DNA of 64,000 nt from Bacteroidota bacterium (GTDB lineage: Bacteria > Bacteroidota > Ignavibacteria > Kryptoniales > JAKASW01): contig JAKAGT010000006.1 of assembly GCA_021825585.1 (NCBI GenBank), forward strand, positions 62,001-126,000. Reading direction: 5' to 3'. Under the pieces are notes generated by a model that did not search any database, had not been told where the DNA came from, and saw only the letters and a program-made list of their open reading frames with translations. Of the stretch, positions 13,851-18,164 are shown piece after piece; position 1 is the first letter of the stretch; each line of letters starts with the position of its first letter. Position numbers and translations under genes: made by a program.

Positions 13851-14954
13851 ATGGACTATAATTCTGACAAAAGAATCGTAATGACATTAGATGCGGGGGG
13901 AACGAACCTCGTCTTCACCGCCATTCAGGGGAACCGGCAGATAGCCGATGAGATCGCTCTTCCTTCCAACGGTGATAATCTGGATAAGTGTCTTTCTGCA
14001 ATCGTCGAGGGATTCAGCAAGGTGAAGGAAAGACTCAATGAGAGACCCGCGGCAATCAGTTTCGCTTTTCCGGGACCGGCCGATTATCCGGACGGCATAA
14101 TCGGCGATCTTCCCAATATGAAGGGGTTTCGCGGGGGTGTTGCGCTGGGGCCGTTCCTGGAAGAAAAATTTGGTCTGCCGGTTTTCATTAATAATGATGG
14201 AGACCTGTACGCCTATGGCGAAGCGATTGCCGGGTATTTGCCGTACATAAACGGGCTGCTGGAACAGGCGCGAAGTCCGAAGAGGTACAAGAATCTATTG
14301 GGGCTGACTCTCGGGACAGGCTTCGGGGCCGGCATAGTCCACGATGGTGTCCCGCATCTCGGGGACAATTCAATCGCGGGCGAGATCTGGCTTCTGAGGA
14401 ATAAGATGAATCCGGCCATGAATATCGAAGAACATGTCAGTATCCGGGGAGTGAGGAGAGTCTACGCCCATGAAGCAGGAATGGGGTTCAAAGACGCACC
14501 TTCGCCGAAGGACTTATATGAGATTTGTGTGGGCGAGAGGGATGGGAATAAGGCTGCCGCTCTTAAGGCATTTCAAGAAATGGCGGAGGCAGCCGGCGAC
14601 GCCATATCAAACGCGATAACGTTGATAGACGGGCTTGTAGTGATCGGCGGAGGATTGTCGGGGGCCTCGGGTGTCTTCCTCCCTCAGTTGGTCAAGGAGA
14701 TGAACAGCTACTTCACAATGCCCGATGGAAGCCCCCTTAAGAGGCTGGCGGCAAACGTCTATAACCTGGAAGACCATGAAGAGTTGTCGAAATTCCTGAA
14801 GGGATCGGTTAGAGAACTGACCGTCTATGGCACCGACAAAAAGGTAATGTACGATCCTGAGATGAAAATAGGGGTCGGCATATCCAGGATCGGCACAAGC
14901 AGGGCGATCTCAATCGGCGCTTATGTTTTTGCATTGAGCTCGCTCGACAGGTAG
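13851..14954 (+). CDS. ROK-family sugar kinase or regulator-like protein
   Basis: 367 residues. The actin-like ATPase start TLDAGGTNLVF is the phosphate-1 motif. NNDGDLYAYGE carries the ND pair in which Asp acts as catalytic base in glucokinases, and GLTLGTGFGAGI with VVIGGGLSGAS complete the fold. The zinc motif CxCGxxGC found in most ROK proteins is absent. No N-terminal winged helix exists, so a kinase is likelier than a repressor. The substrate is unknown; glucose or another hexose is possible. GGTG lies just before the start. It is a single gene between divergent recQ and a convergent operon. Confidence 0.85.
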   Translation: MDYNSDKRIVMTLDAGGTNLVFTAIQGNRQIADEIALPSNGDNLDKCLSAIVEGFSKVKERLNERPAAISFAFPGPADYPDGIIGDLPNMKGFRGGVALGPFLEEKFGLPVFINNDGDLYAYGEAIAGYLPYINGLLEQARSPKRYKNLLGLTLGTGFGAGIVHDGVPHLGDNSIAGEIWLLRNKMNPAMNIEEHVSIRGVRRVYAHEAGMGFKDAPSPKDLYEICVGERDGNKAAALKAFQEMAEAAGDAISNAITLIDGLVVIGGGLSGASGVFLPQLVKEMNSYFTMPDGSPLKRLAANVYNLEDHEELSKFLKGSVRELTVYGTDKKVMYDPEMKIGVGISRIGTSRAISIGAYVFALSSLDR

Positions 14955-15033: not shown

Positions 15034-15909
15034 CTAAAGAGAATCTACTACTTTCCTTGCTTCCTCAATGTGTGCCGGTGTGGTTCCGCAGCATCCGCCG
15101 ATCATCTCGATACCGATCTTCGAAACGCTTCTGACGAATTCCGCGAATCCTTTCGGGGAACCCGAATATTGCACGACATTATTCTCGACCGTCGGGACAC
15201 CGGCATTCGGCTGGATCAAGACCGGCAGCCTGGTTGAGCGCCGGATCTCTGTCGCGACAAGCATCATGTCCTCGAATCCGCTCCCGCAGTTAGAGCCGAC
15301 GAAGCTTGCACCTGCCTTCTCGAGTCTGCGCACGCAGTCAGCAGCCGATTCGCCGAAGGCCGTCCGGACTTCATCTCCCGATCTCTGGAAAGTCATCGTG
15401 ACGCCGACCTCCGATGCTCCGGCCGACTTGGCGCCTTCGAGCGCGACCAGCGCCTCATCGAGCGAGATCATTGTCTCGATCAGGATAGTCTGGACCCCGT
15501 AGGTTCTCAATGTCTCGACCTGTTTCCTGAACATCCCGGCTGCATCTTCTTTGCTGATGTCTCCGTAAGGTTCGATCAGACTGCCGAGTGGTCCGACTGA
15601 GCCGACCACTGCCGCCGTCTTTCCTGCCGCTTCAAGCGCGATCTTGGCGCCGGTTGAATTCACCGAGTCGACGAATTCCACGGCGCCGCTCCTCTCGAGC
15701 CGGCTCTGCGTCCCACCGAAGGTATTCGTCTCAACGACCTGCGAACCGGCCCTGATATAGTCCAGATGTACCTGGCGAACCACTTCCGGTTTTTCAATAT
15801 TCCAAAGGTCCGGCGGGCTTCCGACGGCCAGTCCCCTATTCTGAAGCTCGGTGCCCATCGCGCCATCAAACAATACAGGTTTACTCGATAACAAATCTAG
15901 AAGCGACAT
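15034..15909 (-). CDS. Homocysteine S-methyltransferase family protein
   Basis: 291 residues forming a zinc-dependent TIM barrel like the N-terminal module of MetH and betaine-homocysteine methyltransferase. The start VLFDGAMGTELQ and ETNTFGG are typical. The zinc ligands are C208 (GSNCGSG) and the pair C273-C274 (GGCCGTTPAHI). It would transfer a methyl group from the corrinoid protein to homocysteine, or work in the reverse direction. It is the last gene of a three-gene operon, two bases after the corrinoid protein gene. Confidence 0.9.
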   Translation of the reverse strand: MSLLDLLSSKPVLFDGAMGTELQNRGLAVGSPPDLWNIEKPEVVRQVHLDYIRAGSQVVETNTFGGTQSRLERSGAVEFVDSVNSTGAKIALEAAGKTAAVVGSVGPLGSLIEPYGDISKEDAAGMFRKQVETLRTYGVQTILIETMISLDEALVALEGAKSAGASEVGVTMTFQRSGDEVRTAFGESAADCVRRLEKAGASFVGSNCGSGFEDMMLVATEIRRSTRLPVLIQPNAGVPTVENNVVQYSGSPKGFAEFVRSVSKIGIEMIGGCCGTTPAHIEEARKVVDSL

Positions 15910-15911
15910 TC

Positions 15912-16295
15912 CTAATCTTCCTTTCTTTCGGATATGATCTTCGTGATAAGTTCAACTGCTTCGGCGGCATTCCTGACGTAGCCTGCCGCGCCTATATCAT
16001 CCGCAAACTTCTGATTGATCGGGGCGCCTCCGATAATTATCGGAACCATAAGCGGTTCGAGTATTCTCATTGAAGTCTTCATCGCCCTGGCGGAAATCAG
16101 GACCTGCGGCAGAAAAATATGGTTATCTCTGAATCGCCTTCCCACGACATCCATGCCGGGGAGGATCCCTTTCTCCAGAATCTCGCCCGGCAGAACGGAT
16201 TCATCGATCAGCTTCGCAGTCAAATCGCCCGCCTCGACATGTTTGCCGGCAATGACAGCGCCGGCCAACATCCCGAACTCTTCACTTATCCCCAT
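15912..16295 (-). CDS. Corrinoid methyltransfer protein with most of the cobalamin-binding domain missing
   Basis: 127 residues. Residues 1-82 are the complete four-helix cap domain of MtaC/MtbC-like corrinoid proteins (PGMDVVGRRFRDNHIFLPQVLISARAM, here cut as PGMDVVGRRF and FLPQVLISARAM). From about residue 84 the sequence jumps to the last strand and helix of the Rossmann domain (IIIGGAPINQKFADDIGAAGY). The part between, about 80 residues in relatives, is gone, including DxHxxG whose His ligates cobalt. The frame is intact across the joint near 16043-16050. As written the protein could not hold cobalamin normally. It overlaps the upstream gene by 10 bases. It may be a true deletion or an assembly collapse. 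Confidence 0.85.
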   Translation of the reverse strand: MGISEEFGMLAGAVIAGKHVEAGDLTAKLIDESVLPGEILEKGILPGMDVVGRRFRDNHIFLPQVLISARAMKTSMRILEPLMVPIIIGGAPINQKFADDIGAAGYVRNAAEAVELITKIISERKED

Positions 16296-17410
16296 CGTTC
16301 AACTGCCTCTTTTAGCAGGAGTATTTTTTCGCGTTTCACTCTCGGTGCTATCGAGCAGGCAGTGCTCAGAATGAACCCACCGACCTTCTTCCCGATTTCG
16401 ATTCTGTCCTTTGCATCAGACGTTATGTCGCCGTCCGTTCCAAGGAGTAGAGTGTTCACCGAATCGACGTTGCCTTTGATAAAACCCTTTTTGCTTGCAA
16501 TCTTCATTGCTTCCTCAAGTTCGACATTCCCCAGCGGCGGTGGGTCCAGGCATTCGATGCCTGAAGCACCGGTGTCGAACATCAATTCAAGCCTGTCTCT
16601 GACTGCGCCGCACGTATGAAGGTATACATGAACACCCTTCTTGCGTATCGAGTGCGATATTCGGGCCTCGAACGGCGCCACGAATTCCCTGTAGAAGGCG
16701 GGTGAGATAAAGCCTGAACCGGCAAAAGGCGAGGAAACCTTAATCGCGTCGATGCCAGTGTCGCACATTTCAACAGCGAGATCCTCTATCAGTCCCGCGA
16801 AATGCGCCAGTATCTTCTTCGACTTCTCCCGATCGTCGATCAGGGCCATCAACCCGTCCTGGTGTCCCAGTAAATCAAGGAAGTAATCGAACGGGGATGT
16901 AATTTCACCATGTATCGAATACTCTTTACCCGCTCGTTTCACGATAGTGTCGATGACGCCGAACTTGTTCCGGGGATCAATTCTGAAATGCAGTCCCTGG
17001 GAAACAGGGATATAGTCAAGAGATTTTGGAAGGTCTTCCAGGTTTATCTCTGCCAGCCCGGGTTTCGGCGCCTCTTGCATGTCAACCTGGGGAAGGTCGT
17101 CATTGCCGAAGATCATCGTCGTACCGTCCTTAAGGCGAACGACCTCTCCGTCTTCCGAGTTGCCACGTTCGACGATTTGATTCCTCCAATTCGGATCATG
17201 TCCGTGCAGACTGATTAGTATGCCGTCGAATCCATAAATTTCCCGGAGCGAAAGGAGTCCTTCCGCAAACGTATCGCCGTCGAACCAGAATTCGACCGGG
17301 GAAACCGGCAGTTGCTGAAGCATGTGTCCGATGCTCATCTGGCACATAAGAGGGACTCTATCAGGTGTCTTGAGATCCATGGCTGCCTTCACGCGTTCCT
17401 TCGAATTCAT
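16286..17410 (-). CDS. Uroporphyrinogen decarboxylase-family corrinoid methyltransferase (MtaA/CmuA-like)
   Basis: 374 residues from the ATG at 17410, supported by AAGGAAG six bases upstream. The start MNSKERVKAAMDLKTPDRVP is that of UroD-fold methyltransferases, not of heme-pathway HemE. Zinc-ligand candidates for thiol or methyl transfer are H265 and C267 (LHTCGAV) and C352 (STACSIAP). Relatives move methyl groups between a corrinoid protein and a thiol or a methylated substrate. It is the first gene of the operon with the corrinoid protein and homocysteine methyltransferase. The methyl donor is unknown, and no corrinoid-reactivating protein (RamA-like) is adjacent. Confidence 0.88.
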   Translation of the reverse strand: MNSKERVKAAMDLKTPDRVPLMCQMSIGHMLQQLPVSPVEFWFDGDTFAEGLLSLREIYGFDGILISLHGHDPNWRNQIVERGNSEDGEVVRLKDGTTMIFGNDDLPQVDMQEAPKPGLAEINLEDLPKSLDYIPVSQGLHFRIDPRNKFGVIDTIVKRAGKEYSIHGEITSPFDYFLDLLGHQDGLMALIDDREKSKKILAHFAGLIEDLAVEMCDTGIDAIKVSSPFAGSGFISPAFYREFVAPFEARISHSIRKKGVHVYLHTCGAVRDRLELMFDTGASGIECLDPPPLGNVELEEAMKIASKKGFIKGNVDSVNTLLLGTDGDITSDAKDRIEIGKKVGGFILSTACSIAPRVKREKILLLKEAVERWG

Positions 17411-18164
17411 TGGTCTTCCTTCGTTTTTCGTTAGTGACGTACCATTAGTCAATTAGACTCGGGCTAATACGCCGTACCTATGACAACATTCTAAGTCCTC
17501 TTGAGTACCACTCAAACTGTTGAGTCAATTAGAAAGCGAACAGACCAACCAACACTATTTGAATCGTCTGATCGCTCAACTTGTGCTCTATATTGGTTCT
17601 GCGTTCATCTGGAATCGGTCGGGTCAATCGTTATTGTCAGATCGGTTTCTTGCACCAAGTTATGACTCGCGGGCCCAAAAATGCAATCGTCATCCACGCA
17701 GCCGTTCACGCTCTTCGTTCTGTATCTCTCTGATGAGTTGTTCAACACCGCAGGCGTGAGCCAGACTGAAAAGCGGCATTATGGTGTGAAGAAATTGGGC
17801 GTCTCTTTAAAAGGAAGGACGTCTGTCCTAAAAAGCTGCACAAACAAAACGTATGATGTCATTTCTCACAGAGCTGTTGGAATACTCCACAGAGTAATTA
17901 ATCCGCAATCTACACCGCGCAAAATTCCACATAACAGTCCACGGGAATCCCTTTTGAATCAAATTCGCCTCATACCGTGGCACACTTACTGCATTTGTTG
18001 GTTATGCAAAACAGTGGACAAACGTAAACGAACATCCGGCCGACAATTCCTCACAAACGATATCTGAAATACAAGAGTTGGAGAGCTGAACCGGGATTTA
18101 CTCTCGCACTCTGTGGATCAGTGTCTCTGCGGCCGGTACTCCAGAAGAAAGGATCATTAAGAAC
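17411..18164. other. Long intergenic region between divergent corrinoid operon and octaheme cytochrome
   Basis: About 750 bases with lower GC. Short frames exist (for example at 17681-18067 on the plus strand) but none has recognisable protein character. An inverted repeat lies at 17501-17515, and AGTCAATTAGA occurs twice (17447-17457 and 17523-17533). A weak 5-bp hairpin sits at 17816-17829. The region probably holds promoters for both flanking units; an RNA gene or decayed gene cannot be excluded. Confidence 0.5.
17501..17515. promoter_or_regulatory. Inverted repeat, possible operator
   Basis: TTGAGT-ACC-ACTCAA is a perfect 6-bp dyad with a 3-base centre. It lies about 90 bases upstream of the corrinoid methyltransferase operon start, a position suited to a dimeric regulator. 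No regulator gene is adjacent. Confidence 0.3.

Follow-up and report, generated by a model that had tools for sequence, protein, structure and literature searches.

Does a corrinoid protein that has lost its cobalamin-binding core still have a part to play between the two methyltransferases that flank it? The question is raised by a gene in the window (the whole stretch of DNA analysed, 64,000 nucleotides) from the genome under study, G000, in which three adjacent, co-directional genes encode a UroD-superfamily methyltransferase, a corrinoid protein and a homocysteine methyltransferase, the middle one being truncated. The closest congener is G006, whose syntenic ortholog is used as the reference. 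An earlier note on this DNA left three explanations side by side, a natural adaptor, a recent strain-level deletion and an assembly collapse; the recent deletion fits best and the adaptor finds no support. The features of the locus are as follows.

15034..15909, minus strand: homocysteine S-methyltransferase (PF02574), 291 amino acids (Pfam, 213.6 bits).
15912..16295, minus strand: truncated corrinoid protein, 127 amino acids (open reading frame and translation), its orthologs in G006 and G003 being 267 bp longer.
15915..16046, minus strand: retained C-terminal Rossmann part beginning VPIIIGGAP, residues 84-127 (identity to G006).
16043..16050, minus strand: deletion joint, at which 89 ortholog codons are gone, including DxHxxG and the conserved Ser149 of G006 (alignment).
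16047..16295, minus strand: retained helical cap (PF02607), residues 1-83 (Pfam, AlphaFold and Foldseek).
16286..17452, minus strand: UroD-superfamily (MtaA/CmuA-like) methyltransferase, 388 amino acids (Pfam PF01208, 109 bits).

The gene lies where the earlier note placed it, between a UroD-type and a homocysteine methyltransferase gene. Both neighbours are intact and 87% identical to their G006 counterparts, with the order unchanged, and this order is common to G000, G006, G003, G045, G160, G182 and others. The UroD protein retains an H-x-C (279-281) and C366 zinc-type motif, its match to TIGR01463 falling below the cut-off of that family, and the homocysteine methyltransferase retains a zinc-type motif made up of Cys208 and Cys273-Cys274. 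The start of the corrinoid gene overlaps the UroD stop by 10 nt (16286-16295) and the homocysteine methyltransferase gene starts 2 nt past the corrinoid stop codon, so the three genes are probably translated together. No cobalamin riboswitch or other RNA family was found near the locus.

The cap domain (PF02607) matches residues 10-80 of the 127-residue protein with 73.4 bits, against a cut-off of 23. The B12-binding domain (PF02310) gives no match in this protein at E-values up to 1. Both domains are present in the G006 ortholog (216 amino acids), where PF02310 scores 89.2 bits. The tail still carries GGAP and the last helices, and there are no stops or frameshifts in the retained codons. An AlphaFold model built from a three-sequence alignment has a four-helix cap with a pLDDT of about 88-98 and a 44-residue tail of low confidence (about 41-59). 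In Foldseek the predicted cap matches those of known corrinoid proteins, fitting that of 3ezx at 1.0 Å over about 80 residues. Going by this model the cap may fold, and the tail would be unable to form the Rossmann sheet. The cap had been given as residues 1-82 in the earlier note; it is indeed complete, ending at residue 83.

Alignment of DNA and protein with the G006 and G003 orthologs reveals a single in-frame gap in the G000 gene, 267 bp or 89 codons long. The earlier note was therefore right that the core had been deleted in frame and that DxHxxG is lost at 16043-16050; its estimate of roughly 80 residues (about 240 bp) was too low. In G006 numbering the gap contains GDVHDIG, with Asp102 and His104 (DxHxxG spans residues 102-107), and SALLTTT, with Ser149. 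The DxHxxG motif with its cobalt-ligating histidine is inside the gap and hence missing from the 127-residue protein. In CobDH of Desulfitobacterium hafniense, Asp100, His102 and Ser147 are cofactor contacts that keep the cobalt and the lower base in position, the serine touching the lower base (PMC3727330). G006 Asp102, His104 and Ser149 align to these, and all three cobalamin-positioning residues of this solved relative are missing from the G000 sequence. The cap is 85% identical to that of G006 and the tail 79% identical (G006 residues 173-215). These identities, together with those of the neighbouring genes and the shared gene order, rule out a chance match.

The search for other copies of the short form covered 60 relatives, then samples of 391 genomes of the class and 395 of the phylum, with one genome per species compared. 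About 100 relatives turned out to have the corrinoid cap. Each relative locus that was inspected has DxHxxG at its corrinoid match, and the smallest open frame at the cap matches is 190 amino acids among the matches listed. No second genome with the short form was found in the 391 class and 395 phylum genomes sampled, and no match bridges the joint in the 60 relatives or in the class and phylum samples. Full-length orthologs are present in the congeners G006, G003 and G011 and also in G045; more distant full-length relatives number only two from the scan of named genomes. The short form is limited to G000 in the class and phylum samples and does not make up a conserved family of cobalt-free adaptors. 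The suggestion of a cobalt-free methyl carrier serving the neighbours is thus not borne out, every relative found with the gene having the full-length DxHxxG form. The orthologs of 127 residues that the earlier note looked for in relatives are likewise missing, every locus found coding for the full-length protein, an outcome it had named as contrary to its reading.

Measured pairwise against G006, dN/dS comes to 0.10 in the cap and 0.27 in the tail, or 0.14 for the two together; in the neighbouring genes it is 0.06-0.08 (0.06 for the homocysteine methyltransferase). A neutral state after breakage, if there was one, could account for no more than about 0-29% of the branch leading from the G006 split, a bound that varies with the assumed dS and background ratio. 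Judged by their codons, the retained parts have undergone no clear loss of constraint, and the short product may be under constraint. This leaves a recent deletion or a constrained short product, of which the first is favoured by the absence of the short form elsewhere. Two further measures were set aside. A four-taxon codon model of branch-specific selection had saturated branches and gave a similar or stronger weak signal in neighbouring genes. Parsimony on the G000 branch, as a sign of relaxation, counted 6 synonymous and 11 nonsynonymous changes, the corresponding methyltransferase counts being 32 and 9, with a saturated outgroup.

The best explanation, and in our judgement a probable one, is that a recent deletion of 267 bp, private to the species or strain, removed the cobalamin-binding core of an ordinary methyl-carrying corrinoid protein. 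From its sequence the product would neither bind cobalamin nor carry a methyl group, making this a null allele, and the middle step of the module would be broken in G000. With the frame kept, ribosomes would read on through to the next gene, and the homocysteine methyltransferase is therefore likely to be produced still. This enzyme and the UroD protein would then either have no work to do or rely on a different corrinoid protein. The module is probably not needed for methionine synthesis, since a split MetH is intact elsewhere (L077, G000:C39:285000-299000). This is encoded by adjacent genes for a 613-residue homocysteine and pterin half and a 585-residue B12-binding and activation half, in which DVHDIG is present. 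One random deletion in three preserves the frame, so frame preservation says little either way. A broken allele would matter little beyond annotation; the cobalamin-binding label that annotation tools give would be wrong for this gene in G000.

It is unlikely, though worth weighing, that the true genome is full-length and that 267 bp were dropped in assembly, for example through a strain-variant bubble or a chimeric read. The assembly is a draft in 88 contigs whose contamination is estimated at 4.02%, which leaves room for mixed strains, and G000 alone among the genomes examined has the deletion. With one genome per species, fixation, strain variation and assembly error are indistinguishable. 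The joint, however, is in frame and well within C77, a long contig of 191 kb. The other contigs do not carry the missing segment: a search of all G000 contigs for a second copy or fragment returned as best matches paralogs 50% and 44% identical, the closer one in a methanol-type operon. Among about 50 ortholog pairs in the window only the corrinoid gene has a large internal deletion, the next largest gap being 17 amino acids in a 1283-residue protein, which argues against a general erosion of the assembly in this region. Repeat-mediated collapse was considered and rejected. The longest exact words shared by the deletion ends are 5 and 7 nt (G006 and G003), against a shuffled mean of about 6, so a collapse of this kind is unlikely. 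A perfect 8-nt palindrome, TCCGATAATTATCGGA, adjoins the joint, and a near-palindrome is also present in the intact relatives.

A further reading, compatible with a recent private deletion but itself doubtful, is that the loss is real and the module works in trans through another full-length corrinoid protein. The paralog on contig C50 is a candidate, being full-length with DxHxxG and sharing 49% identity with the G006 protein; MtaB and a further UroD are encoded next to it. Against this, it is part of a separate operon of the methanol type and has diverged far. The congeners G007 and G008 offer some precedent. Their UroD orthologs (L082:5779-6936 and L083:6078-7346) are 67-70% identical and are found apart from the usual corrinoid gene: in G007 neither a corrinoid nor a methyltransferase gene adjoins, and in G008 there is none in the 459 bp from the UroD ortholog to the contig end. 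Yet both genomes encode a different corrinoid protein and a homocysteine methyltransferase elsewhere. The module is patchy in the genus, and thus probably dispensable there.

The reading that survives least well is a natural cobalt-free adaptor, its cap docking the UroD enzyme and the homocysteine methyltransferase as a scaffold or regulator while the methyl group passes via another carrier or directly. Its cap is conserved and predicted to fold, its neighbours are intact with low dN/dS, its frame is preserved and the unlinked UroD gene of G007 suggests that UroD may have another partner; we nevertheless regard it as very unlikely, as no second genome with the short form was found, the tail, modelled at low confidence, would not make up a Rossmann sheet, and a very recent deletion predicts a low dN equally well. 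The known role of the cap in corrinoid proteins is to cover the cofactor, and here that cofactor is gone. That the 127-residue protein is a fixed and functional docking subunit joining the two enzymes, the methyl group moving on another carrier, is highly improbable. Were the short form functional, it would represent a corrinoid methyltransferase system that lacks the carrier of its cofactor.

The protein can be compared with three known systems. Cognate corrinoid proteins (TIGR02370; MtgC, MtbC, MttC and MtaC; structures 1y80, 3ezx and 7xcn; CobDH) have the same PF02607 cap and Rossmann end and likewise share an operon with a UroD-superfamily methyltransferase. The 127-residue protein differs from them in lacking the 89 residues with DxHxxG and the serine contact, and with PF02310 undetected it should be unable to carry cobalamin as they do. 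The B12-binding module of MetH shares the architecture of cap and Rossmann domain with the full-length orthologs and also adjoins a homocysteine methyltransferase. Here, in contrast, the gene is separate and small, the partner is a UroD protein instead of a pterin-binding one, the core is deleted in G000 and the genome has its own split MetH.

The mlp gene clusters, which contain MtaA-like UroD proteins, a corrinoid protein and a reductive activase, have the same His-Cys-Cys UroD methyltransferase beside a corrinoid protein (PMC10418091). The G000 module differs in having one UroD protein, not several, and in including a homocysteine methyltransferase. The RACo/RamA C-terminal domain (PF14574) was found neither in G000 nor in 12 relatives, though corrinoid methyltransferase genes are present; a control search found it in Methanosarcina acetivorans.

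UroD-superfamily enzymes methylate or demethylate corrinoid proteins, and for members with His-Cys-Cys a role as S- or Se-methyltransferases has been proposed (PMC10418091). The intact three-gene module recurs across the class and looks like a route from a methyl donor to methionine. In the likely path the methyl group would pass from the donor via UroD to the corrinoid protein, and from the methylated corrinoid protein to homocysteine, giving methionine, with the homocysteine methyltransferase as the presumed acceptor enzyme. A limited literature search found no paper describing this module.

Contig C50 also carries a second system (L043, G000:C50:96000-108000), an operon of UroD, corrinoid protein and MtaB-type (PF12176) genes, which is of the methanol type. 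A MetE-like Meth_synt_2 protein is encoded downstream of it.

The module, or its UroD gene alone, is often found beside sugar genes (L042, L079, L040, L082 and the window). These surroundings hint at demethylation of methylated sugars feeding methionine; a literature search found nothing on a sugar O-demethylation route with homocysteine. A ROK-type kinase gene is present near the module in the window (13851-14954), and a ROK-type kinase gene is also present in L082. SSF symporter genes are found in L040 and L042, with a similar ORF in L079. GATase1-like and PhyH genes are present in L042, with similar ORFs in L079, and NagB-like ORFs occur in both L042 and L082.
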